A DNA stretch of 64,000 nt, taken from assembly GCA_030789695.1 (NCBI GenBank), contig CM061136.1, positions 135,172,448 to 135,236,447 of the forward strand, read 5' to 3'. A program made the translations under genes and the position numbers. The stretch's first letter is position 1. Each line of letters starts with the position of its first letter. The notes under the pieces were generated by a model, which saw only the letters and a list, made by a program, of their open reading frames with translations, searched no databases and was not told where the DNA came from. Origin of the DNA: Scilla litardierei. Its lineage: Eukaryota; Streptophyta; Magnoliopsida; Asparagales; Asparagaceae. This document shows, piece by piece, positions 1,162 to 64,000 of the stretch.

Positions 1162-2752
1162 TGACGTGCGTTTATATTTCATATATTTGCGCACGTTTTC
1201 TTCCGTGTTTTTCCGTATTTTACCGCCGTCTTATATTCGTTTTCTCGTGTTTTCTTGTTTTCTTTCACTTTTCCGTGTTTTCTGTATTTTGCAGGAGTTT
1301 ACTGGCATATGGGGCATAAAACGATGATATCATGAGTCCCCGGAGCAACGGGAGGAGTCACGCGTGATCCAGGGGGTCAAACGACAAAGATTGCATCTTT
1401 CAGCCCCTCACCAGATCGGTTGGTCATTATCAACCAATCGGGTGATGCACGCGTGCACCACCCGGACGCAGCTTGGAGCTCACGAGAAGTCACCCGGTCG
1501 GTTCAGTGACCGGGTCAAAAGCCCAAACTCTCTGGAATTCGAAGCTGATTGCCAACCGATCGGGTGACCTTCACCCGATCGGTTCACCTGTAGCTAAATT
1601 TCAAAAGCCAAGACACGAAGATCCAACCGGTCTCCTCACCCGGTCGGCACCAAGATCCAACCGACCTCATCCATGTTTCAACCGACCGGTTCATCCTGAC
1701 CGGGTGAAGTCCCGCATTGCGCTGTGAAAATTTGGAGCAGGTCACCCGATCGGTTGACTTGTCAACCGATCGGGTGATATCTTTTCCTATATATAGAACT
1801 CTAGGTTTTCCAGAAACGGGAGCTTGTTATTTTTTGCTGTTTTCTTCATTTTGTGACGACTGTAATTTCCCAGTTTTTGTAAGTTTTCAGATCTTCGTCA
1901 AACTTTAGTATTATCTTAATTGCTTTACTACCATTGCATTTCTATTGTCTGATCATGATTTTTACGGTCGATTTTTGTTTAGATCGCTTTTTACTAAATA
2001 TGTGTGAGTAGTTCCCAAATCTGGGATTTTGGCGGAAACCCCTCCGTGGGCTCTTCCCGATGCGTCCATAGGTCTAGGAAATCGGTAGGGATTAGGAATC
2101 TAACGATTACGCAGTGTGTTTTATTGTCATTGGCGGGAAAAAGACCGCCTTTGACCGTTGGGCCAAGGGGGAATAAACTTGGCAGTTGACTCCCTAGCCA
2201 TAGCTCACGCCCTTAGCGTAGACGCTGAATCCTAGCGCGCAGGAGCGGCAGGATGAGACGTTGGGAGTTATCGTTGCGAGCTTAGTGCTCCCGGAGTCGA
2301 TCAGTGTTAATGGACACGGGAGTGCCCACTGATCGAACCCGGGAAGTCCGGCGTATCATCCTGGGCACCGACCAGAATATCGGGCCCATGGGACGCCGGT
2401 ACCACTTTCAGAGGCAACGTCTCACCATTAGACCCTAATTCCGATCAATATCCTACCCGTAGGCCGTATCGGCGAGAATCGCACGATGGGGTGGAAACCA
2501 AAGTCCCAGATTTTTCCTTTATATTGTCTATACCTTGCATTCCATTTACCGTGACAACCCATCATTTGATCCGGGCTAGCTCGCCCATGGGGTGATTTTG
2601 ATCCTCTTTGACACAAGCACATCCACGCCTCCCTGAGTTCGACCCCCAAGACACACTACAACACCGTGCGCTTGCGGTTACAAATATTTAAATCTCACGC
2701 CCCCAATCGTATTATTGCACACATCTAGCACGCACAGCCGGGGGGGGCGTCA
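1162..2752 (+). repeat. Element A 5' LTR
   Basis: A 1591-bp terminal repeat, nearly identical to 17024-18612, starting TG and ending CA. U3 carries the element's dyad cluster and a TATATATAG box at about 1788. Transcription probably starts shortly downstream. Confidence 0.95.
1405..1796 (+). promoter_or_regulatory. U3 dyad cluster and TATA box of element A
   Basis: Repeated inverted motifs of the form TCAACCGATCGGGTGA and its complement TCACCCGATCGGTTGA, plus variants with GACCGG in the centre. The last pair (about 1742-1777) is a perfect hairpin-forming arrangement that ends about 10 bp before TATATATAG. The same cluster occurs in the 3' LTR. The enhancer role is inferred from position; repeated short palindromic boxes upstream of TATA are known in the Tnt1 LTR. 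Confidence 0.7.
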
Positions 2753-2759
2753 AGCTTTA

Positions 2760-2777
2760 TGGCGCCGTTGCCGGGGA
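2760..2777 (+). other. Primer-binding site, tRNA-Asp
   Basis: TGGCGCCGTTGCCGGGGA lies seven bases after the 5' LTR. It is an 18-base complement of the 3' end of plant tRNA-Asp as I know it, the usual primer of Athila elements. Confidence 0.93.
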
Positions 2778-2951
2778 GGTAACGTGCTTGTTATTTTAGG
2801 ATTTCATGAACCCTAATGTCTAGCTCACATCCCTACCTCGCGATAATTTTCGCATTCTTCTTTTTCCTTTTTATTTTCTTATTTTTATTTTTATTTTTAT
2901 TTTTATTTCTTATCTTATCTGTTTCTTTCCCACTTTTCTCTTCACAGGTGT

Positions 2952-4354
2952 TTGTTGTTTTTCATGCGCAGGAGTTCAAGAAGTCTCGACGACTTGATCC
3001 CAGTTGATCCAGAGATAAACGCCACCCTAAGGCGTTTGGCCGCCGAGAAGCGAAGAAGAGAGGATCCTGAAGCCATGGGGGAGAACACCCCACCTCACAA
3101 GTCTCTGTTGGAGTACTCGATGCCTTCCATCGAGTCCACCTCCGCCATCCGCGGCCCAAAGCTTCGAGCTCAAACCATCTTTGGTGACGTGGATCCAGCA
3201 GGATCAATTTTCGGGTGCACCCATGGAGAGCCCGATTGAGCATTTAGACTCCTTTTTGGAGAAATGTGACACCTTCCGGATAAACTGTGTCACAACTGAG
3301 GCGATCCGACTGAAGCTGTTCCCCTTTTCCTTGCGAGATAAGGCCAAGCTGTGGCTTAGGGGGAAGGACCCGAATACATTCAACACCTGGGAGAAGCTCT
3401 CAAATGCTTTCCTGACAAAGTTCTTTCCTCCGGGGAAGACCATGAAGCTGAGGAGTGAGATCTACTCCTTCTCCCAGGCCAGCCACGAGTCCTTGCATGA
3501 AGCTTGGACGAGATACAAGGAGATGCAGAGAAGATGTCCCCACCATGAGCTCCCCAAGTGGCAGATCATAAATCTGTTTTATAATGGGTTGAGGGACGAT
3601 TTAAAATCTTCCATAGACGCCGCGGTTGGAGGGTCCTTTATGTCAAGAAGCGAAGAAGATGCCGGGCAGATTCTTGAAAATATGGCATCCAACAATGAAC
3701 GGTGGTGTGACGAGAGAGCCACACCTAGATCTGGGGGGCATCCATAGGGTTGAGGACGTCGACAAATTGTCAAGCAAGTTTGACTTACTGTCGACCCAGA
3801 TCTCCGCATTGATGGTAGGCGTCGGTGGCACCGGTACACAACAGATTGCTGCGGTGGAGTCCGAAGTTTTTGGAGAGTTCGACGGTGGTGACATCTCACC
3901 ACCGTTAGATCAGGCGAGCGCATTATTTTACAATCCTACAGGGAATGCGCCTTTTCCACCACGAACCAACTCCAACCTGGCCTACTCTCCTAACAACCGG
4001 AATCATCCCAACCTTAGCTACCGAGCGCCTTATCAACAGCCGGCTCAGCAACAACAGCAGATATATCAGCCGGCTAGGCCTCAGCAGCAGTTTCAGCAGC
4101 ATCAATTTCAGCAGCAACAACCTCCACAACAATATCAACAGTATGCTCCTAGGAATCAGCAGCTCACCCAGCAGCAATACGGCCAGCAGAGGGCCATTTC
4201 TCCGGTTGATTCCCTCTTGACTCAATACATCGCCAACCAAGAGAAGATAAATCTGAAGCTGGAGATGGGACAAAGAGTCCTCACTTATCAGGTGACCCAG
4301 CTGGGGTTGCAAGTGGCGAACCTTCAGAGACCGCAGAATCTTCTACCGCCATAG
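2952..4354 (+). pseudogene. gag: Element A gag, frameshifted
   Basis: The capsid polyprotein of an Athila-type element. The N-terminal part (from 2952) is in frame 3. The conserved retrotransposon gag domain (about 3190-3720, with an LRDKAKLWL motif and 'FYNGLRDDLK') is in frame 1. The glutamine-rich tail (about 3740-4354) is in frame 2. The second shift falls at a run of six G (3734-3739), and one extra G explains it. A TAG at 4352-4354 then separates gag from the protease part, which continues in the same frame. Two frameshifts and a stop make it unable to give a full product. No zinc knuckle was seen. Confidence 0.85.
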
Positions 4355-4360
4355 CTTGAG

Positions 4361-5082
4361 GTGAACCCAAGGGGGGTAAATCAGACCTTGGCGCTCACGC
4401 ATGAGCATGAGAACGTGTCTGCCATCGTCTTGAGGAACGGAATGCAAATACCTACGAGAGAGCCCCCCAAAGGATCGGAAGCACCGTTGGTCGTGGAACG
4501 ACCAATTGAGAAATTAAATGACGACGGTGCTTCGTCGCCCAAGCCAACTACTCTGGAGGGAGTTCATAGAGAGGAGAAGAAGAAGGATGAGGGAGGAAAC
4601 CTAAGAGTATTCAAGCCCGTTGTGCCTTTCCCACAACGGCTTGCCAAAGCCAAAATCGATGAGAAGTATGGCAAATTCTTTGCCATGGTGAAAGATCTGA
4701 GCATACAAATCCCCTTCCTCGAAGCCATCGAGACAATTCCCTCATATGCCAAATTTCCGAAAGACTTGGTGACACGGGGATCTAGAAAAGAGAAGGTCAT
4801 GTTAACGGCGGAGTGCAGCGCGCTCATTCAGCGCACAAATCCGCCAAAGCTCAAGGACCCAGGAAGTTTCTCCACCCCTTGCTCTATTGGGGAAGTGCAA
4901 ATCCAGAGGGCGCTCGTCGATCTAGGAGCGAGCGTCAGCTTAATGCCCCTATCGTTGTACAAGAGAATAGTGATGAGAGACTTAGAGCCCACCGGCATGA
5001 CATTACAACTTGCTGACCGTTCGGTCAAGTACCCGGTGGGAGTAGTGGACGACCTCCCCGTCGATGTGAGAGGAGTACAAGT
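4361..5082 (+). pseudogene. pro: Element A protease, 5' part
   Basis: Continues the gag frame after the TAG at 4352-4354. It contains an Athila-type aspartic protease with the active-site sequence LVDLGASVSLMPL near residue 187, where the family usually has D-L-G-A-S. It then has 'LQLADRSVKYPVG', typical of the family. The frame is interrupted at 5082 by element B. The last residues of the long open frame past 5083 come from B's LTR and do not belong to the protein. The remainder lies at 13260-13863. Confidence 0.88.
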
Positions 5083-6360
5083 TGTAGAGGAATATGCCCT
5101 CGGATCATTTGTATTTGATGCAAATGAAAATTTAAGCCTAGATAGGGACTAATTTGCATATGATGCAAAAGAGATTAAATGTGTCTTAAATTGTTTAAGA
5201 CTATATTTAATTAAATAAACGCGTTGAAAAGGTTACCTAGATGACGGGATCGTCCCGCTCTAAACGCAGGTTCAAACCGCGTCAAAAACGGAGTCCAAAT
5301 GCACAAGTTATAGCCAAAACAAGTCAGCCCAAACTGTTGGGCTGAAACCAGCGAAAATGGAGGCCCACCAAGCCCGAATTTTCTGGTTAGGGTTTTTTGA
5401 AACCTGGGATTTTCTTGACGGCTACGTTTCTAAGAGAAGCATGACTTTTGGCTAACTTTGGACAATTGTTTGAAGGGTCAAACGGACTCGGATTGACGAG
5501 CCGGTTTTTCCTACGCGTTCACCGTTGAACTCTCTTTGATTTGGTAGGTTGTACCAACATTGAAGCTCAACGGTGAGGGAGTTAAAATTCGAGAAAGTTT
5601 GCCCTTTGTGAAAGGCAAACTAACTTGATTTAATTAATCCCAAATTAATAGTCCCACATCGGATTTTGAGAGAAGGGGAGAGTCCACCGCCTATATTTAG
5701 GGGTCTGCTCTCCTCCTCAAAACTCGTCCCAAGCTCTAGATCTGAGCGGCTCTCAAAAATGTTGGAGCACGCTCGGATCTAAGCTTAAATTAATATTTCT
5801 CCCCTCCCTATAAATTTCTGCCTTACTCCTGAGGGCTCCAGCAAAGCCGCAAAGGAGTTCGGATTCAGATCCGAAATCTTGGCGGAGGTTTCACTCGCGT
5901 GAAACTTTCTGGAGCAAGTGGTTGGCTCGGCGACGAGAAGTTGCTTGGATCGGCGTAAGTGGTTGCTGGAATCGGAGCGGTTCGTGTGGGAAGGGCAATT
6001 GATTGCCTTCGGTAACACTTTTGCTGCAAGGCAAGAGTTACGGGTATGTTGAGTTTTCTCAACTTTAGTTTTAATTAATGTGCATTATTTTATTGCAGTA
6101 GCTATAGTAGTTAATTAGATAGTAGTATCCTCAGGGGTTGGTCTGGACCCAACCCCGGGATAGTAGCATTTTCTTGGCTTGGGTTTTATGCAGATATGGC
6201 TAGTTTATATAAAATGTTTATATAAAAGTTTTTCTCTTTATTTTTCCGCTTCCGCTGCGTTAATTTTGTGCAAGGTTGTCCAACCTTCGCTCTCAAGTAG
6301 GGCGAAGGACGGACAATGCACTAGTCGAAAGAGAGCCCTTGGATCAGATAAAACCCATCA
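5083..6360 (+). repeat. Element B 5' LTR
   Basis: A 1278-bp repeat matching 11932-13254. It contains a conserved purine-rich segment and the motif CCTATATTTAG, where the 3' copy reads CCTATATAAATAG. The TATA box in this copy therefore carries a 2-bp deletion. Confidence 0.95.
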
Positions 6361-6361
6361 T

Positions 6362-6373
6362 TGGTATCAGAGC
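6362..6373 (+). other. Primer-binding site, initiator tRNA-Met
   Basis: TGGTATCAGAGC one base after the 5' LTR, the standard copia primer site. Confidence 0.93.
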
Positions 6374-7140
6374 CAGGCTACATAGACTATCTAAATACTG
6401 CTTTTATGAAATGCATGTTATTAAAACTTGTAGTTAGCCTTGAACTAACTATATGTTGGTTTTCAAATTTTTCGAAAATTGTTTTGAAAACCAAGATTAG
6501 ATCTTTTTAATTATGTGATAATTAATGTCTTTATGTTTCTTTTTGCTTTTATTTGATAATTGCTAAAAGAAAGACTTGTAGGGTTAGCCATTAAAATTCA
6601 TTTAAATCTTTAATCTGATTAAATTTAAATGACTAGCTTTGGCTATGTTTTAAAATGTTGTTCACAATATTTTAAATAACACATCCTAATGAATGATTAG
6701 GATTGTCCCTTGTTTGTTGAAACAATTCTGATGTGATTTATTAAAATCCTATAGTTGATAGGTTTCTAATAAAAGTTATGAAACACATCCTAATAATTTG
6801 GAATTATAGGTTATGACTAGTTGATAGGATTAACTAGTTAAATAAATCATAACAACCAGATTAAATCAATATAACACTTTTTATCATTAGCACTTTCAAT
6901 GGAGAATGGTATGGGTAGGTAGTTAGGGAAGGTGTTGTGGATCGACTCAGCTTTGCTGGGCGCAAGTGATCCTGCCCGGCCCTAACCCTAGTCATGCCCG
7001 CTTGTACCGCAAAGTTGCTGATGATAAAATGTGTTAGCTTTGGTTATATCTAGTCAATGCGTTATAAATCTTGTTAAAGATTAATTCGTATCCCTCCTTG
7101 ATTTTGGAGCTTTGTAACTCAAAGAAAACATTTATAGTTG

Positions 7141-7433
7141 TTGAGTCTCCTCAAGCTATGACATGTTTTTCTTTAAGGAACAAACTCCAACATACATGTG
7201 ATGTAGTCTGGACTTGACCCAAATCGATGTGTCGGGTCTCCTCGAGCATCGATCTAAGTCAAATCTGAACACGAAATCAAGGGTCTGACTAGACCAGTCA
7301 TTATGATTAGTTGAGTCTCCTCAAGATCATAAGTAACTGTAGGTAAGAATCGATAGGGAGTCACATGTGATGTGATTGACTAAGAGTTAGTCTACCAATC
7401 ATGGAACCAATCAACTTGTTGAGTCTCCTCAAG
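7141..7433 (+). repeat. Four spaced copies of a 15-bp dyad in the B leader
   Basis: TTGAGTCTCCTCAAG occurs at 7141, 7311 and 7419, with a variant TCGGGTCTCCTCGAG at 7232. The ends of each copy are complementary (TTGA and TCAA, or TCG and CGA), so short hairpins are possible. The spacing is about 80-108 bp. The stretch 6374-7606 has no other coding signal; a packaging or leader role is a guess. Confidence 0.7.
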
Positions 7434-7606
7434 GTTGTGAGGTTCATGATGATTGGGTCCCTCTTTCACTATATTTTAAGATATTAAAATTCGTTCATTT
7501 CCGAGAATGATCGTAAAATAATGGGAGACCATAGTTAATTAAAAACCATATTAACTATATTATTTTATCATGAATTACACTAAATTCATTCTATGTCTTT
7601 TGCAGC

Positions 7607-7885
7607 ATGAAAACGAATATGAATCTTATCCTGAATAATAAATTGACTGGTTTAAATATTGATTGCTTAGAAAACTTTGGGCTTAACGGAGAGAAGAAAG
7701 GACATATTGATGTCTCGACTTCTAAGGTATTAGTTATACAGAGTATAGTCCTTTCTGTAACTTCTAACGCATGGGTATTGGATACTGGTGCGGGTACTCA
7801 CATTTGTAATTCGTTACAAGGTATGAGCAAATTTAGAAACTTAAGAAAGGACGAGTTCTTCAAGTTGGTAATGGAGCTAATGTAG
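7607..7885 (+). pseudogene. Element B gag-protease remnant
   Basis: It opens with a gag-like N-terminus ('MNLILNNKLTGLN'), and within about 55 residues it reaches the protease active site 'WVLDTGAGTHICNSLQGM'. A normal copia gag has some 200-300 residues, including a zinc knuckle, between these two parts. The central gag has therefore been deleted. The frame then shifts near 7860, and the continuation is read one frame over. Confidence 0.8.
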
Positions 7886-10815
7886 CTGCTAAAGCCGTAG
7901 GAGACCTAAAGCAAACCTTGGCAAACGGTGCCACATTGTTTTTGAAACAATGTTATTATATACCAAATTTTCTATGCAACGTTATTTCCATTTCGGCTTT
8001 GGCCAAAGACGGATATAAATTTACCATTAATGAATCTGTTATGAACATTTTCTTTAATGATAAATTGCTGGGATTTGGAACAATGAATAATGGTGTATAC
8101 ACTCTGTCTAATGACGTTGTGTTAAGTGTTAACACACGAAAACGTAAGGAATCTAGTTTTAATGAAACTTTCATTTGGCACTGTAGACTAGGCCATATCG
8201 GAGAGAAAAGACTTAGCAAGTTGCATAAAGAGGGGTCTCTTGACCTCTCGAATTATGAGTCGTACGACACTTGCGAGTCTTGTCTCAAAGGTAAAATGGC
8301 TAAAACTCCCTTTACGGGTAAAGGGGAAAGAGTTAGTGAACTCTTGGGTCTAGTACATTCTGATGTATGTGGACCAATGTCTACTTTAGCGAAAGGAGGA
8401 TATTCATACTTTGTTACTTTTACTGATAATCACTCTAGGTTCGGACATGTGTTCTTGATGAAGCACAAATCTGATACATTTGAGCGATTCAAAGAGTATC
8501 GTAACGAAGCTGAAAAACAGACGGGCAAAAGTATTAAAATTCTTCGATCTGATCAAGGAGGAGAATACTTGAGCCATGAATTCCTTGCGCATTTAAAAGA
8601 GAATGGGATTCTCTCTCAGATCACTCCTCCTTACACACCTCAACATAATGGTGTGTCAGAGAGAAGGAATCGTACCTTGTTAGACATGGTTCGATCAATG
8701 ATGAGTGACTCTGGGTTACCTATCTCCCTTTGGGGCTATGCCCTAGAAACTGCCACCCATATCCTTAATAGAGTTCCATCTAGATCCGTGCCAATGACAC
8801 CATATGAGATATGGAACGGGAAGAAACCAAACCTTAAGCATATTAAGGTATGGGGTTGTCCTGCGTATGTCAAGAAGCTTAATCCAGATAAACTGGAGGA
8901 TAGGTCTGTTATGTGTAGATTCATAGGATATCCTAGTCACTCGACGGGACACATTTTCTATCACCAGGAACAACAAAAAATTGTTGTGTCCAAACACGCC
9001 ACCTTTCTTGAAAAGGAATTCCTTGTGAAGGAGTCTAACGGCGAGGTAATAGAACTGGACGAAAGTCTAGAGACTGAATCAACACATGAACAGATCACGG
9101 AACCAGTGGGAGAGGCAAAGCCTAATGCTCCTGAAGCAATTATTAGGAAGTCAAATAGGATTCCTCGAGCTCCAGAAAGATACTACGGATTTCTCGTAGA
9201 TGGAGGAGTTGAGGATAGCATCTTAGTTGAAGATGATCCTATTAGCTTCCAAGAAGCAATTCAGAGTAGAGACTCTAAGAAATGGCTGGATGCAATGAAA
9301 TCTGAGATGGATTCCATGCACATTAATAAAGTTTGGACTTTAGAGAATGTGCCCAAGGGAAGTGTTCCTATTGGCTGCAAATGGATCTTCAAAAGGAAGA
9401 TCGGTGCAGATGGAAAAATAGAAACGTACAAGGCTAGACTTGTTGCGAAAGGTTATCGTCAGATTCTAGGTGTAGATTATGACGAAACTTTCTCACCCGT
9501 AGCCATGCACAAATCCATCCGGATTGTACTCGCTATTGCTGCCTATCACAACTACGAAATCTGGCAGATGGATGTAAAAACTGCATTTCTAAATGGTGAT
9601 TTAGAAGAGCATATTTACATGTCTCAGCCGGAAGGTTTCGAAGTCAGTGGGAGCAAAGGAAAAGCGTGTAGACTGCATAGATCCATTTATGGATTGAAGC
9701 AGGCATCCAAGAGCTGGAACATCCGATTTGATAATACGGTCAAAGAGTTTGATTTTATTAAAAATGAAGATGAGCCATGCGTTTATAAGAAAACCAGTGG
9801 AAACAATTTAGTCATCCTCGTACTTTATGTTGATGACATTCTCTTAATAGGTAACAACATACCGATGTTGAAGTCTGTTAAGGATTGGTTATCAACTAAC
9901 TTCTCCATGAAAGATTTGGGAGAAACATCCTACATACTAGGTGTGAAGATCTATAGAGATAGATCTAAAAGGATGCTAGGACTCTCCCAATCTAGGTACA
10001 TTGATACCGTGTTAAAACGGTTTAACATGGAAAACATTAAAGGTGGGTTTATACCCGCAAATCACGGAATAAGTCTTTCCAAGAAGATGTCTCCAAAGAC
10101 TGACTTGGAAAGAGAACGCATGAGCAATATTCCATATGCTTCGGCAGTTGGATCGATCATGTATTCCATGATATGTACCAGACCTGATGTCACTTTTGCA
10201 CTAGGTGCAGTAAGTCGATATCAGTCTAACTATGGAGAAGAACACTGGAAAGCAGTCAAGACGATTCTCAAGTACTTGCGAAGAACAAGAGATCTAGTTT
10301 TGATTTATGGAAGTGATGAACTCAAAATTGAGGGCTTCACGGATTCCAGCTTTCAGAGTGACGTAGATGACAGCAAGTCAATTTCAGGATACATTTTCAC
10401 TCTCAACGGATGTGCAGTGAGCTGGAGGAGTTCAAAGCAAGACACCGTTGCTGATTCAACTATGGAGGCCGAATATATAGCGGCCAATGATGCAGCAAAG
10501 GAAGCTGTCTGGATTAGGAAATTTGTGAGCTAGCTAGGAGTGGTGCCTACTGTTATAGATCCAATACCGTTGTATTGTGATAACAATGCCACATTGAGCT
10601 TGGTCAAAGAACCCAGATTCCACAAGAGATCCAGACACATTCTTCGAAAATATCATTTGATACGTGATATTGAGAAGAGGAAGGACATAGAAATCCTTAG
10701 AGTCTCGTCTGAAGAGAATTTAGCTGATCCATTTACAAAGGCCCTTGCTCGTGATCGTTTGGAGAAACTAATGTGTAAAAGCGGTATGAAATACCATAAA
10801 GAGTGGGCCTTGTAG
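7862..10815 (+). pseudogene. pol: Element B pol: integrase, reverse transcriptase, RNase H
   Basis: Residues are counted from 7918. The GAG-pre-integrase zinc motif includes 'WHCRLGH' (about 87) and 'CESCLKGK' (about 119). The integrase has D149, D212 and E248, which gives the D-D(35)-E spacing. The reverse transcriptase has YVDD at about 636-639. The RNase H part has 'STMEAEYIAA' near 850. A single in-frame TAG at 10531-10533 precedes the last ~90 residues, which continue in the same frame to 10815. With the upstream frameshift, pol is two lesions from open, but gag is missing. It acted in the cytoplasmic particle and in nuclear integration. Confidence 0.93.
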
Positions 10816-11931
10816 TGAGTGGTAGATGCTTATGAGGCACATTGTCCTGAAAAACATCTTATTCATGAATAAAAATAAATTTATTGGTATCAAATTATCT
10901 TTGTGCATTCGTGTCATCTTATATACTTAGATAATTTCCTTAGACTTATAGCAAGGTATACACTTATCTTGATGCCGATCACGATTATGAGAAAGTGTTT
11001 TTTACCGATTGGAGCTTAAAGTCTTAAACTGGTTCGTGGTCATTGATATGTCGAGAAAAGGATATCGACACATCGATAAGACCATTGTGTCTTTGTATTC
11101 ACTATGGATTAGTAACGATGGACTCGTAATCGTTTGACTTGGTGAAGTCAGAAACAAGACGCAGGTGCTCATTAGAGAATGAGTTCACTGAACGACTCAT
11201 AAAAGATTATCATTTGGTTAAACTTAATTTAAAATGTCAATGATAACTTTTTGTGATGATAGGCAAGCTGGTCCTATGACTTGAAGACATTGAACAAACC
11301 TGCATGTGAATGGTGTCACTTAGATCATTTTCCTAGCTTCAAGACTTTACTTGTCGAAAGGATTTTGGTTGGGTGGCATTTGAAGCATGTGAGGGGAGTT
11401 GTGTCTAAGAAAGGATTCGTCTCTCTCATTAAGGAGAGTTAGTGTTGTATGTGTTGGTTCGGTGCTTTAGTGAAAATCTTTGATCAAAGTATGTTGAAAG
11501 AAGTTCAACATGTATTTAACTAAAGACTGATGTAACTGACCGGTTTCAAGTTGGTGGGGTTGACATGTTACCATACCCTAAACTTGAATAAACAACATAG
11601 TCTTGACGAAAGGATTAAAACTGTGGTATTCATCACGGATACAGTCTTGGTAGTCCCGACGATTTTGTCAATGGGTTAAACCACATAATTATGATGCCGA
11701 AACAGGGACGACAACTACTGCTCGTGGTCTCTGCCGTCTAGGGTCTCGAACCCAAACATGTAGTAGGGTCAGGCTGTAGGGTCTCACACAGAGTGCGATC
11801 TTCGTCTAGTAATAGGTAGAAATTAGTTAGGGAGAATAATTTACATTTGATGCAAGGGATAAAATATTACAACAGATGTTTGCAATCATCTCCTGCATTC
11901 GAGATAAATGATCCCGAGTGCAAGTGGGAGA
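10816..11931 (+). other. Element B 3' untranslated region and polypurine tract
   Basis: About 1.1 kb with no ORF of note. It ends with the purine run AAGTGGGAGA (11922-11931) directly against the 3' LTR, which serves as the plus-strand primer. Confidence 0.85.
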
Positions 11932-13254: not shown

Positions 13255-13259
13255 CAAGT

Positions 13260-27530: not shown

Positions 27531-27532
27531 CT

Positions 27533-40130: not shown

Positions 40131-40132
<2 letters not shown>

Positions 40133-40216: not shown

Positions 40217-40218
<2 letters not shown>

Positions 40219-52137: not shown

Positions 52138-52151
52138 CTCTCCCCCTTTTT
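52138..52151 (-). other. Element G polypurine tract
   Basis: On the minus strand CAAAAAGGGGGAGAG ends at the LTR start. The adjacent CATCATC is shared with element C and is typical of SIRE elements. The stretch 52152-52556 is 3' untranslated. Confidence 0.88.
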
Positions 52152-53813: not shown

Positions 53814-53903
53814 CTTGAGTAACTTGGGAGAAAGATGAGAAAATAGCTCCAAATGACCAAGCACCAAGGTGAAAAATCAAGAGAGGAGGAGGAAGAAGAG
53901 GGG

Positions 53904-54157: not shown

Positions 54158-54267
54158 AGTCGTTTTCTCATCCCGGGGAGTTTTTGATCCAGGTTGATTG
54201 TGCTTTCTGAACAAGAAATGTTTTAGGAATAAAACACAATCATATACACATATTACAACACATTTAA

Positions 54268-54270
<3 letters not shown>

Positions 54271-54299
<29 letters not shown>
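54271..54299. repeat. (TG)n microsatellite
   Basis: About fourteen TG repeats in the spacer between gag and the third ORF of element G. Confidence 0.95.
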
Positions 54300-54305
<6 letters not shown>

Positions 54306-54380
54306 ATAATTTAGTTAAAAAAACTTTTGTTCTGATTCAGCCGTTTGACTTCTTGATTTCTCCTCTTTGTTTTTCCTCTT

Positions 54381-56114
54381 TTAGAGTACCTGAAAAAATA
54401 AGCGTTTTATGGTACTCTTTGGTTTTGAGTCCGAGGAGTTAGTCTTTAGGAAGCCAAACCCAATACGGTTTAGTTCCTTCATGAACAACATATTTATAAT
54501 TTTTGTTAAAATGAATTTTTTGAAAACAAAGTCAGTAGCGTACCTTTTTCTTCGCTGATCAGATAATTTCTTTGGTATCCAGATGCTCAAGACATTATCG
54601 TTAGAATGATGCATCCTAGTATGCTTAACTCGTTTCTTGATATGATGTGAATCATAGCCGAGTCCGGTTTTGCTAGATGAAGCTTTTTGATTATCTATTA
54701 TACTATCTAGCTTCCCTTTTCCTTTGTTGAAATTCTCAATAATTTTCATCGTAGCGTCGTATTTATCTTTGACATATACGAGAAGATTATTTAGATTTTC
54801 AACTTTTTCATTTACTAGTGAAATATCTTTTTGCAGAAGATCATTCTTTTCTTTAAGAAGACTATTTTCTTTAATGACTTCTTCTTTTTCTTTAGTATCT
54901 CTTTTAATATTTCTAAGTGTTTTTCTATGTTCTTTAATGAGCTTTTCATGCATTTTGCATAGCTCCTTATATGCTCCCATATAATCCAAGTCTTCATCAT
55001 CGCTTGACGATGACTCATTGTCGCTAGATGAATCATGATGCGAGCTTACCTTGGAGGATGTAGATGCCATGAAGCACATGTGTGCCGTCTCTCTTCTTTC
55101 ATCATTATCTTCTTCTGAGGATTCATCGGATGAAGATTCGTCGCTTTGGTCGAAGGCTGCATAAGCTTCTTTCGTTGGTCATCGGAACTTGTTTCTTACA
55201 TTGTTTCGCCTCTCATTATTGTCTTTGTTCTTCTCACGATCTCTGGAATCACGGTTGTTTCTCTCCAATGGACAGTCTCTCTTGACATGCCCTAGTTTAT
55301 TGCAACCAAAACAAATAATACCGTTAGTGGGTCTAAAAGATCGTTTTCCATACTTACTAGTGATGAACTCTTTAAAGTTCTTTGAGATGAATGCGATATG
55401 GTCTTCTTTGTCCGTGTAGTCGGAATCTTCCTCTTGTGCTTTGAACGCAAGATTCTTCTTCTTTGGATTTTCTTCGATTTTCTTGTCTTCTTCAAGCTCA
55501 ATCTCATATGCCATGAGATTTCCCATTAGTTCTTCGATGGTGAGGTCCTTTACGTTATGGGCTTCTCGAATGGCCGTAGTCTTTCCCTTCCACTCGGGTC
55601 GGAGGGATCTTAGTATCTTCATTACCTGTTCATACTCGGAAAGTTTCTTTCCTAGTCCTGCAAGCTCATTTGTAATATTAGTAAAACGAGTATTCACATC
55701 GGTGATACTCTCTCCTTCTTCCATTTTAAAAGATTCGAACTTTGAATGTAAAACGTTTATGCGAGATTCTTTTACCTTTTCAGTTCCTTTGTCACTTACC
55801 TGAAGAGTATGCCATATTTGATGTGCTGTCTCACATTGGGAGACTCGATTGAACTCATTTCCTGTAACAGCGCAAAACAGAGCATTCATTGCTTTTGCAT
55901 TGAGATTAGCTCTCTTCTTGTCGTCGACAGACCATTTCCCAAACTCAACGTCGGTGGGTGCGATGTACGGGACTTTGGTAATAGTCCAAACTTCAATGTC
56001 TAATGACTCTAGGTGAGTCTTCATTCGGATCTTCCAGCTAGCGTAGTTGGTTCCGTTGAATAGAGGTGGTCGCATGGTATTCAGTCCTTCAGAGTGAAAA
56101 GATGTTGACGCCAT
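54381..56114 (-). pseudogene. gag: Element G gag, one in-frame stop
   Basis: A long SIRE-type capsid polyprotein starting 'MASTSFHSEGLNTMRPP'. It has the gag (UBN2) core at about 25-210 ('YASWKIRMKTHL', 'AHQIWHTLQVS'), a zinc knuckle CFGCNKLGHVKRDC at about 268-281, an acidic serine-rich stretch and a coiled-coil tail with 'KEKEEVIKENSLLKEKND'. One TGA at 55179-55181 divides two open parts that share a frame. Otherwise the 577-codon frame is uninterrupted. The start follows the primer site by 15 bases, so the leader is very short. Confidence 0.9.
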
Positions 56115-56129
56115 CACTTTTGTAGCCTC

Positions 56130-56141
56130 GCTCTGATACCA
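56130..56141 (-). other. Element G primer-binding site
   Basis: On the minus strand TGGTATCAGAGC, two bases from the 5' LTR, complementary to initiator tRNA-Met. Confidence 0.92.
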
Positions 56142-56143
56142 AG

Positions 56144-56263
56144 TGTTGGATCCTGTGAATGGCAAACAACACTAGAAGGGGGGTTGAATAGTGTTGTGCA
56201 AATAGTATACTTTTTTTGCTCGTTGATGTTAGCACAAATAAAATCCTTCTGTAATGACCCTAC
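56144..56263 (-). repeat. Element G 5' LTR stub
   Basis: About 107 bp nearly identical to the left end of the 3' LTR, up to CCTTCT at 56250. The next 13 bases before element F can only loosely be aligned to the LTR. The rest should follow element F beyond the window. Confidence 0.85.
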
Positions 56264-58014
56264 TGTTGAATATTGGACTCCCCGGATTTGGTTTTGATGA
56301 TGAGCAAACATAAATAATCCATGAACTAACAATTTGTGAGCGCAGTTTTGGAGATCGTCGCCAAATTCACGAGAACATTCAAAGCGACATCTCAACACTT
56401 CCCAAAGCTCGTATTCATGTCCAAAGCTTCGTTGAAGCTCTTGCGCCGTTTTGGAAGTTATGAAGAATGAATCGAAGCTCTCGAAGACCGTTTAATAAGG
56501 TTTTATTTATAGTCTTTTAGCTTCGATATATAGAATGTTAAGCCTTGAGTATATCTTACGTTTCTATCTTCATTTCGCTCATTTCGTAGCTCTAGGATTC
56601 TTGCACAAGTTCATTCTAACTTCCTCGAAGCATCGCGCTTCGATTCGGACTTTATTGTGCATGTTAGTTGGTACAAGAAGGAGTACTGACCGACTAGATG
56701 GTGATCTAGTCGGTCGGCAACTCTTCTTGGACCGACTAGTTTGATTCCTTAATTTCTTGGACTTTACTGTTTACAGTTAGTCGGTCTACGTTGACTCACC
56801 GACCGACTAGTTTGTGAACTAGTCGGTCAGTGATGCTTCTTTGACCGACTAGTTGTGGCTTACTGTTCATGCTTAAATTCTCCTAAGTTACTGTTTATCG
56901 TTAGTCGGTCTAAGAATGTTTGGTGACCGACTAGTTGACAATCTAGTCGGTCAACTTTTGTTCTTGGACCAACTAAGTCAACTTGCTTTCAGACTAATTC
57001 ATTTTGCCTCTTAGTCGGTCTACGTTCATTGACTGACCGACTAGTTGTGAAACTAGTCGGTCAGACAGTCTTCTTGGACCGACTAGATTTCTAGGTTTGA
57101 AATTCTATCTCTTCTCAGATCTTCACTTAGTCGGTCCATGCTATGTGACTGACCGACTAGTTGATGAACTAGTCGGTCAGTGATTGTTCTTTGACCGACT
57201 AATTCTCCCAGATTTCTATCCGTTGGAGAATGACCTAACTTGTTTTTATGGGACCCTATAAATACGAACCTAGGTCATTTCTATCTAGGTTAGAGCTGCC
57301 ATTAAGAGATCCATTGAGTTCTAAAGAGATAGCCTTACTCACTCAAATCTAAAGCTCTCTTCCTCACAAGAACCCATTCTCTCTCTCATTCTAGATCTAG
57401 AATCCATCTAGAGAGAAGCTTGTTCTTGGTGAGCTCTTCAAGCTATTGCTTGATCCAAGTCTCCAAATCATTCCTAGGCACCGATTGCTGGTCATTTCCT
57501 TGGTGCTAGGTCTTGGTGACTTCATCTTCCTCAAATCCTTCATTTCACCTATTGGGTAAGAAAAACTCAAGGTATAGGATTTTGTGGTAAGTTTGCTTAT
57601 TTCAATATAACTCATTTATATTGCTTGTTGATTCTCTCGGTTGTGAGAGAAGGTTGTGATCCCGGTTTGTGGGATTCACTTTTGCTATTGCATGTATGAT
57701 TTGATCTTGTGAAGGTTTTTCACAAGATATTCATAGTGGAAATCTTGGGTTATGGTTTCTAACCTAAGTATCCGGAGGGGATCCAGGTGGTTGGGACGTA
57801 GGATCACCGGGAACAAGTCGGGGAGACTTGGGTGGATCCGAACCCATTAACATCGTTTGTTAGCTTTGTTAATTTTGTGTTGTCATTCAATTTAAGCTTC
57901 CGCAAATTGATTTGGTAGTTGTTTGCAATTTAATCTGGAATTATACTCCTTATTATTTTAAAGTACTATTCACCCCCCCTCTAGTACTTGTGCAGTAGCT
58001 GGTAGGGCATTACA
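56264..58014 (+). repeat. Element F 5' LTR
   Basis: 1751 bp from TGTTGAATATTGGACTCC to GGCATTACA. Near the start it has TTTTGATGATGAGCAAAC as in element D. Only one copy is in the window; the right end is set by the primer site. Confidence 0.88.
56688..57264 (+). promoter_or_regulatory. U3 dyad cluster and TATA box of element F
   Basis: About nineteen copies of GACCGACTAG or its complement CTAGTCGGTC (some TTAGTCGGTC). They recur in a fixed layout: GACCGACTAG, eight bases, CTAGTCGGTC, about twelve bases, GACCGACTAG. The first pair can form a 10-bp stem with an 8-nt loop. TATAAATA at 57257-57264 follows the cluster by about 55 bp. Confidence 0.72.
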
Positions 58015-58041: not shown

Positions 58042-60282
58042 ATGTCTGCCAACGACAACAAGACCGTGCCTCCACCTTCCAACTATGCCACCTTCAGGAA
58101 CCGTGAAGGAGCGTCATCGGTGATGGAAGGACATTCCTCTACGAGGCCTCCATTCTTCAACGGTACCAACTACGGGTACTGGAAGTGCCGGATGGAGACT
58201 TTCCTCTAGAGTGCATCCTTATGGAGGACTACAATGAAGGAATACATCGAACCCAAAGAAGAAGACTTTGAGAAATGGACTACCGCGGAGGTCGCCGCGG
58301 AGGTAAGCAATGCCAAGGCAATGAACGCCTTGCAATGCGCATTGGAGCCCGAGGATTTCAATAAGATATGCACATGTAAGAGTGCATATCAAATTTGGAA
58401 CTCCCTCCTCATACTTCATGAAGGGACGAGTAGGGTAAGAGACTCTAAACTCGTAGTCGTAAACAAAGATTACGAAATGTTTCATATGCAACAGGGCGAG
58501 AAGATGAAAGAATATTACGCTCGCTTCGTTGACATAATAAACGAGTTAGAGGCCCTCGGCAAGTCCTACATTCAAAAGGAGAAGTGCTCAAAGATTATTG
58601 AAGGACTTCCTTCTTCTTGGGAGAAACGTACCTTCGCCATCGAGGAAGGTAATGACATGAATAAATATACCGTTGTTCAACTAATGGGTACTTTGATGTC
58701 ATACGAGGTACGCAAAGATAGCAAGGTGAAGTTACAAGAAAAGATGAAGTCCTATTTGAACCTAGATGCGCCTAAGAAAAAGGCGATTGCATTCAAGGCG
58801 GCTTCATCCACCTCTACCGATGATGAGGACTCGGAAGAAGAAATGGACATGGAATCCATTGCACTCATGGCAAAGAAGTTCAATCGCTTCTTCCGAAAGG
58901 GTAACTTCAAACAAAAATCTAAGTTTACTTCTACTAACGCCTCTCCACCTTTGTGTTTTAAATGCAATAAGCCGGGACACATCAAAGCGGATTGTCCTCA
59001 AAACAAGCAAAAGGAGAAGTGGAAGGCGCCAAAGTTCGACAAGTCAAAGAAGTACAAAAAGGGGTACAAAAAGGGACTTGTCGGAACTACATTCACCGAC
59101 TCCGAGGATTCCTCAAGCGGAGAGTCGGATGATGAGAAAGTGGAGCAAGCGCACATGTGCTTCATGGCAAGAGAGAAGCATGATCAAGGATCCTCCTCTT
59201 CCGATGATAGCGACGACGAAGGCGATGAGGTAACGATGGATGATCTTAGGGATGCTAACTCTCACTTATGGTCTAAATATACAAAATTAGTAAATCGATA
59301 TACTAAAGTAAAAGATGACCTAGCTAGCATTCAAACCTCGCCTAAGACTATCGTCACCAACAACGACACCGTTGTTGAAGAGTTAAGAAATGAGATTGTC
59401 AACCTCAAATCTAAACTTGAACATGTTAGCATTGATGATCTGGAAGAACATAGGATAGCGGATTTAACTTCTCAAAACTCGACTTTGAGTATTGAGAACG
59501 AGAATCTTAAATCTCGTGTTTTTGTGCTCACATCGCAAGTATCCAATTTGGATACTTCTATGCGTTCTCTCAAAGAGAAATATGAGAACACATTGGGCCG
59601 AATTAACAAATTCAACAAAGGTAAGGACCATTTGGATAAAATCCTAAGTGACTTACTTCCGGCCAATCACCACATTGGTTTGGGGTATACGATGGGATGT
59701 CCATCCAAAGCGGCCACTACTTTTGTTAGGCCAACTTCCGGTGACTCTACGAGTGGTAGCAAACACTCTATTGGTAGTTCATCTACCAATGGTGCTTCCA
59801 CCTCGTCCACGCCCTCTTTTGGAAAGAAACCCACTTTGGGTGGATCTCCAAAGAAGGGGCATGCTTATATGTACACCAATACCATGCCACGTAGGAACAC
59901 ACGTCCTACTCCACCATCACACACATATGATGATTTTTATGCAACACATTCTCGGGCACGTGCACACCATGTGAGACACCCTCACGCACGTGTTCCCACA
60001 CATGCATATGTTCACCCACCGCATCATATGAATAATTCTCGTCGTGCACCATTCCATCATGTCCCGTATGCCTATCCACAACATGCATCACGTAGAAATC
60101 AACGTCGCATGCATGCACCCAATAGGATGATGGCTCCCAAAATTTTCACTATTTGGAGCCCAAAGGACACAAGCATGGATGAAAAACAAGTATATATGAA
60201 TGCTTATTTTTCGAATGTTGTGCATAGTAGGAATTATGTGGGGAAGTCTAAGTCCAATTGGACTTGGCTTCCAAAGGTCTAA
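58042..60282 (+). pseudogene. gag: Element F gag, one in-frame stop
   Basis: A 746-codon frame starting 'MSANDNKTVPPPSNY', open except for a TAG at codon 56 (58207-58209). It contains the UBN2-type gag core ('NGTNYGYWKCRMETF', 'AYQIWNSL', 'YYARFVDIINELEALGK'), a zinc knuckle CFKCNKPGHIKADC at about 305-318, a lysine-rich then acidic serine-rich segment, a coiled coil around 420-530, and a histidine-rich basic tail. It ends with TAA 60280-60282. The later ATG at 58234 would give a 682-residue protein lacking the N-terminus. The single stop may be a true lesion or a sequencing difference. Confidence 0.9.
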
Positions 60283-60336: not shown

Positions 60337-63300
60337 GTACTCAAGGAAAAGAAAAAGGAAAGGAGCAACAAATTCAAATTTGGCTCCAAAGGGAATTGGA
60401 TACTCGATAGCGGGTGTTCAAAACACATGACGGGTGACGCTAAATTGCTCTCCGGAATTGTTCCCATTGCAAATGGAAATCGCGTCGTATTCGGAGGCAA
60501 TGAGAGCGGAACCATCGTCGGTGTTGGTAAAGTGGGTAACCCTTCTAAACCCTTAATTAGTGATGTTTATCTAGTTGATGGTTTAAATCATAATCTTATT
60601 TCAATAAGTCAACTTTGTGACAAAGGTTACAAAGTTAGCTTTGCGAAAGGATTGTGTCATATTTCAAATGATAATAATAAATTATTATTTTCCAGCACAC
60701 GCCATAAAGATATTTATATTTTGGATCTTCCTAAGTCATATGAACAATGTCTCGTTGCCAACACAAGTGAACAACACTTATGGCATCGACGCTTTGGACA
60801 TGTGAACTTTGGAACACTTTATAAGCTTTCGAAATTAAATTCCATTAAAGGTTTTCCGAAACTCGTTTTTGAAAAGAAAAGTTTTTGTGATTCTTGTCAA
60901 CGTGGCAAGCTTCCTAAATCTTCATTTAAACCTAAGAAAAGCATTTCTACGAAACGGCCACTAGAGCTATTACATCTAGATTTATTTGGGCCAACTAGAT
61001 TTGCTTCCTTAGGAAATGCAAGATATGGACTAGTCATCGTTGATGATTATTCAAGATTTACATGGGTATTCTTCTTATGCAATAAAAATGAAGCTTTTGA
61101 AAACTTCACAATATTTGTAAAGAAAGTACAAAATCTCATCGGAACCACCATTGTCACTATTCGTAGTGATCATGGGGGTGAATTTGAGAATGAGTCTTTC
61201 TCAAATTTTTGTGATGATCTTGGAATTACTCACACGTTTTCTTTCCCTCGCGCACCTCCTCAAAATGGTGTTGTTGAGAGGAAGAATAGAACGCTTGTGG
61301 AGTGTGCTCGCACTATGCTCGAAGATAGTCAACTTGGCTATCAATTTTGGGCGGAAGCGGTACACACCGCTTGCTATGTGTTTAATAGAATACTTTTGAG
61401 GCCCGGCACCAAACAAACTTGCTATGAATTGTTGTTTGGTAGATTGCCTCAAGTTAAACATTTTCGTGTTTTCGGCGCAAAATGTTTTATTAAAAACACA
61501 TATGATAATTTGGACAAGTTTGATCCGAGATCGGATGAGGGGATATTTGTTGGGTATTCCTCACGTAGCAAAGCCTACCGGATATACAACAAAAGATCCT
61601 CTACGATCGAGGAATCACTTCATGTCTCTTTTAATGAGAATTTTATTACTTCTAGAATTTCAAATGACAATGATTCTATGGATGTTTTATGTGATTCGTT
61701 TGAAAATTCTAAGTCCATTGATTCAATTGATTCTATTGAGACTAACCCGACTAATGAAGTTGTTGAGAATGTGCCTAGTGATCAAGGTATTCCCAAGCGG
61801 CTTCAAACCGTCCGCGACCATCCCCATGAGCAAGTAATTGGCAATATTCATGATAGTGTCAAGACGAGATCGCAAGTCCACCACTTCGCCAATAGTGCCT
61901 TTGTCTCATCAATAGAGCCAAAGAATATAGTTGAAGCGTGCGAAGATAGTGCTTGGATCCTTGCCATGGAGGAGGAACTCATTCAATTCGAGAGGAATGA
62001 GGTATGGGAGCTTGTTCCTTTGCCATCGAAGAACCACACCGTCATAGGGACAAAGTGGATCTTCAAGAACAAATCCGACGAAAATCAAGTCGTCATCCGG
62101 AACAAAGCTCGGTTAGTTGCTCAAGGCTATCGCCAAGAGGAAGGTATCTATTTCGAAGAATCCTTCGCTCCGGTAGCTAGATTAGAATCGATTAGACTTT
62201 TATTATCGTATGCATGCCATAAAAATTTTAAGTTATTTCAAATGGATGTTAAAAGTGCATTTTTAAACGGAGATGTCGTTGAGGAAGTTTACGTTTCTCA
62301 ACCTCCGGGCTTCATAAATGAAAAATTTCCAAATCATGTTTTTAAACTAAAGAAAGCTCTTTATGGTTTGAGACAAGCTCCTCGAGCTTGGTATGATCAC
62401 CTAAAGAATTTTCTTTTGGATTTGAATTTTAAAATGGGCGAAGCCGATTCTACACTTTTTGTTAAGCATGCGAATAATGATATTTTATTAGTTCAAATTT
62501 ATGTTGATGATATCATTTTCGGTGCTACTAACTTCACTCTTTGCGAAGAGTTTTCTAATGTTATGAAGGAACAATTTGAGATGAGCCACATGGGCGAACT
62601 CAAATATTTCTTAGGTCTCCAAATTCGCCAAATGAACGATGCAATCTTCATCCACCAAACGAAGTATACGGTGGAGTTGCTTAAGCGATTTGGAATGGAA
62701 AGTGCTTCCGGGAAAAAGACTCCAATGAGCACGACTACGCATCTTGACAAGGATACGGGCGGTAAGGATGTAGACATTCGTCTATATCGAGGTATGATAG
62801 GTAGTTTACTTTATCTTACCGCAAGTAGGCCCGATATTATGTTTGCCGTATGCATTTGTGCTCGTTATCAGTCTCTACCTAAGGAGTCTCACTTAGTAGC
62901 GGTAAAGCGTATTTTCCGTTATCTAAGTTACACTTTAGATTTTGGATTACTTTATCCGAAATCTAGCACGTATGAGTTAGTCTCATACAGTGATGCCGAT
63001 TATGCGGGATGCAAATCCGACAGGAAAAGTACTAGTGGTACTTGCCATTTTCTAGGAAATTCTCTTGTCTCTTGGTTTTCCAAGAAGCAAAATTCCGTAT
63101 CACTTTCAACCACCGAGGCGGAATATATTGCCGCAGGTGCCGCTTGTGCCCAGGTTCTTTGGATGAGACACACTTTGAAGGATTTTGGTATTCACTGTCA
63201 TACTAGCCCTATCATGGTGGATAACCAAAGTGCTATCTGTCTTTCAAAGAATCCGGTGCACCATTCCCGATCAAAACACATAGATGTCCGACACCATTTC

Positions 63301-63450
63301 TTAGATGATCATGTTGCTAAAAAGGACATCATATTAGTGTACGTTGAAACCCAAAAGCAAATCGCCGATATTTTCACGAAACCCCTAAAGGAGGACTCCT
63401 TTGTGCGGTTGCGTCGAGAATTGGGGATTATGGGTGAATCCGAGATATAG
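60337..63450 (+). CDS. pol: Element F pol polyprotein
   Basis: An open frame of over 1000 codons in the same frame as gag. TAA (60280) and TAG (60334) lie between gag and pol, and the protease site '[13 protein letters not shown]' precedes the first ATG (60427). Expression would therefore need read-through or splicing. Residues counted from 60427: pre-integrase 'HLWHRRFGH' (about 118) and 'CDSCQRGK'; integrase D185, D248 and E284 (35 residues between the last two); reverse transcriptase [11 protein letters not shown] (692-702); RNase H '[11 protein letters not shown]' (about 894-904). It ends 'LGIMGESEI'. The integrase-reverse transcriptase order and the PPGF and FGATN motifs are SIRE-like. 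Confidence 0.94.
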
Positions 63451-64000
63451 GATTCATATTTCATTCAATTATCTTGCATGCTATTCGATTTCGCGATATT
63501 TTGTTCATGCTAGATTAATTGAATTTTTGGGAATTTTATGTGATATATTTGAATTTATGATCGAATTCGTATTTCAATGTCGTATTTAAGATTTCGACGT
63601 TTTATGGGGTAATTTAGATGACTAATGAGAGAGTTTTGATGTTTCATCCAAGTGGTTTGTGAAGAGAAATCAATTATCATTTTTTGGACTCTTCTAGTCG
63701 GTCTAAGTTCATTTGTCAACCGACTAGATGCTCATCTAGTCGGTCAGCAAGTGAACTCAGACCGACTAGATCAAGCTTTTATATAACTCCTATCTTTTTC
63801 TTTCGTTAGTCGGTCATAGTACACTTACCGACCGACTAGATTGAAAACTAGTCGGTCAGTGAATATACTGCGACCGACTAATTCTTGCCCTTGAAATTCA
63901 TCTGTGCCTCTGTTTCGACTTAGTCGGTTCAAGCTCATTGACCGACCGACTAGATCGTGATCTAGTCGGTCAGTGCTTGAACTGTGACCGACTAAGTGGG
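63451..64000 (+). promoter_or_regulatory. Element F 3' region with second dyad cluster
   Basis: AT-rich sequence, then from about 63695 eleven or so copies of GACCGACTAG and CTAGTCGGTC in the same spaced layout as in the LTR, running off the window. No polypurine tract or LTR has been reached. By analogy with A and G the cluster may stand before a third ORF outside the window. Confidence 0.55.

Follow-up and report, generated by a model that had tools for sequence, protein, structure and literature searches.

From our analysis of a 64,000-nucleotide stretch of the Scilla litardierei genome (GenBank assembly GCA_030789695.1, contig CM061136.1, positions 135,172,448 to 135,236,447 of the forward strand; the whole stretch is called the window here), one nest of plant long terminal repeat (LTR) retrotransposons was recognised, in which nine LTR families (A to I) were delimited. 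Five of them (A, D, F, G, and H) carry in U3 an array of short dyad sites of their own, ending shortly upstream of a TATA-like box, and these arrays are probably regulatory arrays of the type published as the 'repeated motifs' of Sireviruses, a genus of Ty1/copia elements. The elements lie as follows, with the target site duplication abbreviated as TSD.

1162–18612, plus strand: element A, Ty3/gypsy, TSD GAAGC on both sides
5083–13254: element B, copia, nested within A, TSD CAAGT, LTRs 98.5% alike
19362–28977, minus strand: element C, copia
about 30670–39600: element I, copia with a short LTR
from 40642, plus strand: element D, copia
44434–45915, plus strand: element H, an LTR fragment inside D, start uncertain (44434–44480), cut at 45915 by element E
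45916–50451: element E, LTR pair of ~652 bp, 97.5% alike
50452 to about 56250, minus strand: element G, copia
56264 to past the window end, plus strand: element F, copia

Pfam searches gave PF03732 in the gag of A, PF14223 in the gag of D, F, and G, and PF20167 in the extra open reading frame (ORF) of G; copia domains were found in B, C, F, and I, and no Pfam match was obtained in the two ORFs of E that were searched. No relative of the window elements was confirmed in IMG/VR scans. The LTRs, arrays, and TATA boxes of the five families were located at the following positions.

1162–2752, plus: 5' LTR of A (TGACG...CGTCA), pairing with 17024–18612 at 96%
1408–1777, plus: U3 dyad array of A, 9 TCAACCGATCGGGTGA-type sites (loose threshold), several as inverted pairs
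1788–1796, plus: TATA box of A, TATATATAG, 10 bp past the last site
40642–42427, plus: 5' LTR of D
41045–41671, plus: dyad array of D, 10 close and 19 loose sites, spacing 18–19 inner and 21–22 outer
41758–41765, plus: TATA box of D, TTATAAAA
44739–45100, plus: array of H, 11 near-perfect palindromes CACTCGGCCGAGTG in groups of 3, 3, 3, and 2, spaced 21–23 bp
45185–45192, plus: TATA-like box of H, TATTTAAA, a weak TATA
50452–52137, minus: 3' LTR of G
51427–51439, minus: TATA box of G, CCCTATAAATAAG in minus-strand reading, at 51436
51553–51653, minus: U3 array of G, four GGTAGTCGACTCCC sites, two pairs 21 bp apart
56264–58014, plus: 5' LTR of F
56664–57202, plus: U3 array of F, 5 units of four half-sites GACCGACTAG/CTAGTCGGTC at a fixed 24-18-24
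57257–57264, plus: TATA box of F, TATAAATA

In a search of the whole window with the motif of each family (at most one mismatch, both strands, palindromes being counted on both strands), 13 of 13 position-calls of the A motif fell inside element A, in its two U3 arrays and in an internal array (14060–14394) absent from the original prediction, 10 of 10 of the D motif within 41045–41671, 29 of 30 of the F motif within 56664–57202 and 63694–63995 (with a single stray at 18649), 6 of 6 of the G motif within 51553–51653 and 54113–54147, and 18 of 18 of the H motif within 44739–45100. The original prediction, which gave each of the five families its own array, is thus borne out, as all matches but one lie in the motif's own element. 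The arrays were also recovered without any given motif, by counting the best 10-mer (at most one mismatch, either strand) in 12 LTR copies from the nine families against 60 dinucleotide shuffles per LTR; for this test, the LTR bounds differed from the final ones by 1–5 bases in D and F, lay 24 bases inside in B, and were guessed for H. The best 10-mer had 9 copies in A, 10 in D, 19 in F, and 11 in H, which no shuffle reached (0/60; maxima 4), and chance or low complexity is ruled out for these four. The 4 copies in G were within chance (reached in 16/60 shuffles), and it is by the 14-mer test alone (4 copies, shuffle maximum 2, 0/60) that chance or low complexity is ruled out for this family. 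Of the remaining families, B (3 copies) and I (2 copies) were within chance; C had 4 copies, reached in 4/60 and 10/60 shuffles of its two LTRs, and E had 4 copies, reached in 0/60 shuffles, with a 30-bp tandem repeat as their source. With 14-mers, B and E were within shuffles (16/60 and 6/60), and C had 4 copies against a shuffle maximum of 2, arising from 81-bp tandem units. A cruder 8-mer scan of 635 scan windows flagged 60 of them, including the arrays of A, F, and H and several simple repeats, and did not flag the arrays of D or G.

A search for long dyad axes (at least 12 of 18 pairs) gave 4 axes in the LTR array of A, 4 in its internal array, 2 in D, 8 and 7 in the two arrays of F, 2 and 2 in G, and 4 in H, and 1, 0, 1, 0, and 0 in control stretches of B, C, E, U5 of A, and U5 of F. 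No shuffle gave more than 3 axes, and D (2) and G (2 and 2) are barely above their own shuffle maxima of 1. Sites occur in both orientations in general, as had been claimed, with the exception of G, the close sites of which all face one way. The TATA-like boxes were found where they had been placed (1788, 41759, 57257, 45185, and 51436 on the minus strand), the gap from the array end being 10 bp in A, 54 bp in F, 84 bp in H, 87 bp in D, and 116 bp in G. The arrays begin 246 bp into the LTR in A, 403 in D, 400 in F, about 264 in H (LTR start uncertain), and 484 in G. Arrays are neither missing from most LTR families of the window nor randomly placed with respect to TATA, since five of the nine families have them, close before the box. 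They are not a feature of every LTR either, a possibility ruled out by B and I, with nothing beyond chance, and by C and E, which carry ordinary tandem repeats instead of dyad arrays.

This plan is close to one already described. The available passages of Bousios et al. (2010; PMC2829016) report 'repeated motifs' in 13 of 21 Sireviruses, palindromic and varying between elements, 12 of the 13 with a CGG-CCG core, beginning 200–400 bp inside the LTR and followed by a conserved TATA box; there are at least 8 dyad copies per element, and the arrays form a CpG island. Further copies lie upstream of the envelope-like gene (ENV) where the element has one, and a regulatory role is proposed. In the same passages the motifs are called Sirevirus-specific because 30 classic Ty1/copia elements lacked them, and the copia elements B and I, without arrays, fit that negative side. 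The LTR copy numbers of A, D, F, and H agree with the published minimum of at least 8, and their offsets are comparable with the published start range, the offset of G being somewhat beyond it. By eye, a CGG-CCG core is present in A, F, and H. The internal features of F and G are as follows.

58210–60282, plus: gag ORF of F, PF14223, with a zinc knuckle
60337–63450, plus: pol ORF of F, with integrase core and RVT_2
63694–63995, plus: second array of F, after pol, 3 more 24-18-24 units; the window stops there
52140–52321, minus: four polypurine tracts AGGGGGAG of G
52557–53717, minus: extra 3' ORF of G, PF20167, putative plant transposon protein
53902–54147, minus: internal sites of G, two GGTAGTCGACTCCC 21 bp apart (54113–54147) and one related palindrome (53902), upstream of the extra ORF
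55179–56171, minus: gag ORF of G, PF14223, with a zinc knuckle

D, F, and G appear to be Sireviruses. The Sirevirus junction CA/ATTGG/TATCAGAGC is found with one difference in each (CA-ATTGG-TATCAGAGA in D, CA-TTTGG-TATCAGAGC in F, and CA-CTTGG-TATCAGAGC in G), that of B reading CA-TTGG-TATCAGAGC. Close to where the LTR ends on its 3' side, a C-rich integrase signal was found by pattern search in F (CCCCCCCTCTAGT) and D (CCCCTCTTCTAGT), and by eye in G (CCCCCCTTCTAGT and CCCCCCCTTTTAGT, missed by the pattern). Sireviruses have several AGGGGGAG polypurine tracts before the 3' LTR, followed by AT/TG. G has four such tracts, with the junction AG/TG, and C has three, with an exact AT/TG; in D and F this end of the element lies outside the window. 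Among D, F, and G, reverse transcriptase (RT) lies in the window for F alone. Judging from its exact polypurine/LTR junction, C is a Sirevirus as well. The claim that the arrays span unrelated lineages does not hold for D, F, and G, because all three carry the hallmarks of one Ty1/copia genus, the architecture of which is published (PMC2829016).

Several other features were noticed in and around these elements. In G, 54160–56171 holds gag, followed by the internal sites and the extra ORF, with no pol seen between; the right end of E adjoins the LTR of G, and 30-bp GTGTAGTG tandem repeats stand at the E LTR end. Ending right before the LTR of D, 40092–40594 is a long TC run with irregular GGGTGTGTGCA tandem repeats. 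The LTR of C contains, at 20157–20385, ~2.5 tandem 81-bp units, each with spaced arms GCTCTTGG...CCAAGAGC by eye, which are not CpG dyads and have no clear TATA downstream. Inside C, a GC-rich patch (22689–23160) with repeated CCGACCCG and two related blocks (22689–22765 and 22993–23080) may be a separate small insertion.

Comparison of the LTRs of D and F showed 88% likeness over the first 52 columns and 71% over the last 375, with only a 17-bp match at E 0.38 between them, and the arrays start at near-equal offsets despite different motifs. By this comparison D and F are sister families in which the position of the array was kept and the motif changed. A shared history of all the arrays is another candidate explanation, i.e., one ancestral Sirevirus array with a drifting motif, which A and H gained by recombination or transfer from another LTR. 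The same offset and four-half-site plan of D and F speak for it, as do the proposal in the available passages of PMC11302176 that a gypsy LTR took its motif from a copia LTR, and the AGTCG seen by eye in D (CAGTCG), F (TAGTCG), and G (TAGTCG). That pentamer also suggests that the motifs, predicted to differ every time, are family-specific but not wholly private. However, on the plus strand neither A nor H matched any of the LTRs of B to G at E 0.01 (the best match of A to H being at E 0.05), and we regard this shared history as improbable.

Element A has a different affiliation, and its remaining features are listed here.

2760–2776, plus: primer binding site TGGCGCCGTTGCCGGGG, 7 bp past the 1591-bp LTR
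3031–3747, plus: gag ORF, PF03732 Retrotrans_gag
4355–5152, plus: protease region, with a PF13650 match that falls short of the cut-off (E 0.0026)
14060–14394, plus: internal dyad array, 10 sites (loose threshold), motif the same as in the LTR of A
14406–14413, plus: TATA box TATAAATG (TATAAAT), 11 bp past the internal array
14731–15237, plus: extra 3' ORF, downstream of the internal array
17024–18612, plus: 3' LTR
17268–17637, plus: U3 array of the 3' LTR

The gag of A is of the gypsy type, with 94 relatives among the matches listed, the best being an uncharacterised Arctium protein at 58% identity. The primer site TGGCGCCGTTGCCGGGG we take to be a match to tRNA-Asp, and A fits the tRNA-Asp-primer and long-LTR features of Ty3/gypsy OTA (Athila/Tat). 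The protease region is broken by the nested copia element B and by eye resumes in the ORF 13246–13863. In the search, which covered seven of the longer ORFs of A, gag and a weak protease match turned up but neither RT nor integrase, so A looks non-autonomous. Retand was considered for A and is a poor fit, as its extra ORFs are antisense and its LTRs are 315–1194 bp in the available passages of PMC11963269. By gag and primer site, A is a gypsy element and not a Sirevirus, yet it has the full repeated-motif plan. For H, no coding part lies within the window, and its lineage is not assignable because of this; the predicted span over Ty3-gypsy and Ty1-copia stands with A as gypsy and D, F, and G as copia, H dropping out, so that A alone represents the second superfamily. 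Directly upstream of A (799–980) there is a 26-bp tandem repeat CCGACACAGGTAGCATGATAAGTTTA in 6.8 copies.

The second arrays of A and F are not recent copies of the LTR arrays. In A, the internal and LTR array regions are otherwise diverged, with one match of 74% over 102 columns, and in F the second array matches the first at 67–72%, like the units among themselves; recent copying is ruled out in both cases on these figures. The internal array of A, together with its TATA, could serve as an internal promoter of the extra 3' ORF, in which no family match above the cut-off was found. The private motif reappears ahead of the extra ORF in A and G, and F has it again past its pol. This would also be expected if the arrays were private sites for a DNA-binding protein encoded by the element (the product of the extra 3' ORF), i.e., an auto-regulator or a VANC-like anti-silencer, with site and protein changing together. 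In the available passages, VANC targets are family-specific and array-like (PMC5735166), and the extra ORFs of SIRE elements are highly diverse, making up 19 groups that resemble one another little or not at all (PMC6317226). However, no DNA-binding domain was identified, as the G ORF matches PF20167 only and its structure model is of low confidence (mean pLDDT 39.6) and the A ORF matches nothing above cut-off, and four published Sireviruses without ENV still have LTR arrays (available passages of PMC2829016). We regard an element-encoded factor as unlikely. Quite doubtful, too, is the wider proposal that two LTR superfamilies reached one promoter plan, with private dyads at whole helical-turn multiples before TATA and before a second gene, read by a co-evolving element-encoded factor that would act only on its own family as a retrotransposon counterpart of VANC.

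The geometry of the units is most regular in F, where the 24-18-24 arrangement is kept in 8/8 units, the six between-unit linkers have six lengths, and the spacers agree at only around half of their positions (mean pairwise identity 0.48–0.54). By arithmetic from site spacing, the dyad axes of D and F are 20–21 bp apart, and pairs are spaced 21 bp in G, 19–22 bp in A, and 21–23 bp among the palindromes of H. In the axis search, 9 of 11 axis distances below 30 bp are 10–10.5 or 21 (the other two being 23 and 25), six of these nine coming from F and none from D. Arms match better within units than between units, the observed value being reached by 3/120 permutations in D (where 3 of 20 sites, at 41106, 41289, and 41514, were placed by spacing and are below the site threshold, and the last pair, 41640 and 41662, was omitted), 16/720 in A (six inverted pairs only, two of which, 14284 and 14359, are near-duplicates), and 2037/40320 in F. 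Copying of a dyad that arose a single time should leave arms matching no better within units than between them; the units would therefore be either selected as dyads or repeatedly re-made, and we take the within-unit matching as a moderate sign of one or the other.

Re-making is the core of a further explanation, in which the hairpin itself is kept or generated, quasi-palindromic units of 36–76 bp arising and being 'corrected' by RT template switching on folded U3 RNA or complementary DNA and multiplying by unequal exchange, with promoter effects secondary. The spacer arms of F match at 7.6 of 14 positions within units, 6.8 between units, and 5.3 with shuffled letters, and those of D at 6.6, 4.6, and 4.8, respectively; the longest matching arm runs were reached by 1/120 permutations in D and 334/40320 in F. 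The 36-pair unit of F is 84.7% paired, falling to 16–40% when slid, and this proportion of paired cells over the F columns was reached in 5/500 shuffles, the covariation score in 14/500, and the cells changed on both sides in 18/500. In a fold scan of 639 scan windows, the six lowest z-scores all belong to F array windows and the next two lowest (8901 and 15601) are not arrays, so the scan fits the hairpin view in part. On the other side, two of the five covariation measures of F, pairs changed on both sides (198/500) and pair types (120/500), are within shuffles, and the RNAalifold covariation term is -0.03. The core sites are far better conserved than the arms, the LTRs of B and I have no arrays, and the rigid 24-18-24 with diverged spacers in all F units, together with the constant place before TATA, suggests constraint. 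A primary role of the hairpin is, on balance, a tentative and rather unlikely explanation.

We favour, with a probability of roughly 60%, a cis-regulatory role of the arrays in U3, in the manner of the Sirevirus 'repeated motif', i.e., U3 enhancers that also fold and attract methylation. In its favour are the excess of the arrays over shuffles and their ends 10–116 bp before TATA, the Sirevirus junctions and C-rich signals of D, F, and G, the second arrays, the offset common to D and F, the site spacing in D, F, and H, the within-unit matching of arms, the low fold z-scores of F, and the CpG substitutions between the LTRs of A. In each family, its own dyad site would be present many times, some hundreds of bp inside the LTR and close before TATA, and dyad axes about two DNA turns apart would suit dimeric factors bound on one helix face. 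The half-site of F contains ACCGAC, a sequence that corresponds to the core recognised by DREB factors in the drought/cold-responsive element. From the second set, which precedes the extra 3' ORF region in A, G, and probably F, a separate transcript may be driven. The inverted units can fold into RNA hairpins, U3 being transcribed at the 3' end of the genomic RNA, and such hairpins may become targets of small RNAs and methylation, as reported for maize Sireviruses. Conceivably, a motif under both retention for promoter use and turnover for escape would thus become private to each family in an arms race. In A, and possibly in H, the repeated-motif architecture would then occur outside Sireviruses.

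Several observations weigh against these regulatory arrays. C, a Sirevirus, carries 81-bp tandem repeats in its LTR and gave no dyad axis in the axis search, so that the array is present in three of the four Sireviruses of the window. By eye, the CGG-CCG core, present in 12 of the 13 published motifs, is missing from D and G; G has only 6 close sites in total, compared with at least 8 per element in the available passages of PMC2829016, and no TATA was seen by eye at its internal sites. Neighbouring sites lie 18–24 bp apart in 13/18 cases in D, 15/19 and 9/11 in F, and 7/10 in H (random placement reaching this in 0, 0, 0, and 1 of 5000), but this spacing is within chance in A (776/5000 and 803/5000) and G (694/5000), and all these statistics are inflated by the relatedness of units through duplication. 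Fold z-scores of the D array are modest (-2.4 to -4.7; mean of all scan windows -1.45, standard deviation 1.98), and one scan window of the internal array of A stands at +0.9. As for CpG, the observed/expected ratios in the array and in the rest of the LTR are 1.04 and 1.10 in A, 0.68 and 0.22 in D, 0.95 and 0.71 in F, 0.49 and 0.58 in G, and 0.87 and 0.83 in H, i.e., only the arrays of D and F are enriched; the description of the sites as CpG dyads is apt for these two and loose for A, G, and H. Between the LTRs of A, 30 of 59 substitutions are at CpG positions (232 of 1589) and 27 of these 30 are transitions, a pattern which, as far as sequence can tell, is what decay of methylated CpG leaves. 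Within the array of A, 12 of 370 positions carry substitutions, 6 of these at CpG, and the other LTR pairs have 3/15 (B), 21/111 (C), and 5/15 (E) at CpG, with CpG positions numbering 106/1252, 84/1437, and 48/651. The decay is LTR-wide and specific neither to the array nor to array-bearing LTRs.

Most of the original observation corresponds to an existing Sirevirus hallmark, which is a corrective point in itself. If the plan is common to Sireviruses and gypsy elements, large plant retrotransposons would repeatedly solve the problem of transcription under host silencing via private dyad arrays. A simple genome-wide test is supplied by dyad-axis spacing and within-unit covariation relative to LTR position, and A gives a candidate second promoter for the debated extra 3' ORFs.

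Among known systems, the Athila/Calypso/Diaspora group of Ty3/gypsy (available passages of PMC1142308) resembles A in the tRNA-Asp primer site a few bp past a long LTR and in the gag-protease order, but the words 'palindrom' and 'inverted repeat' are absent from that text, and A is without an RT or integrase match in its searched ORFs. In the open-licence literature searched (titles, abstract starts, and passages), no such arrays were found in gypsy elements. VANC targets of Arabidopsis VANDAL elements are, in the available passages of PMC5735166, short motifs particular to each family, frequently arranged as tandem arrays in non-coding regions and varying between related elements (follow-up work is in PMC10398659); like the arrays here, they are private to the element and change quickly between relatives, but VANDALs are DNA transposons, their motifs stand in one orientation, and the binding protein is demonstrated. 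The LTR palindromes of maize Sireviruses are small-RNA hotspots (Bousios et al. 2016, as cited in passages of PMC5311732 and PMC10760457), and those LTRs share with ours a palindrome-rich, highly variable regulatory region, with small RNAs mapped in maize and sequence alone considered here. The closest likeness is with the Sirevirus repeated motifs in the available passages of PMC2829016, i.e., dyads that differ from family to family, are repeated many times some hundreds of bp inside the LTR and soon before TATA, and cluster again ahead of the extra 3' gene. Such a second cluster is present in A and G; F has one after pol, the window stopping before any such gene, and D and H are cut. Beyond those passages, our comparison would add the Ty3/gypsy element A, with its own TATA after the internal array, the offset kept between D and F under new motifs, and the measured dyad-axis spacing and within-unit matching of arms (covariation), the last two having no counterpart there.

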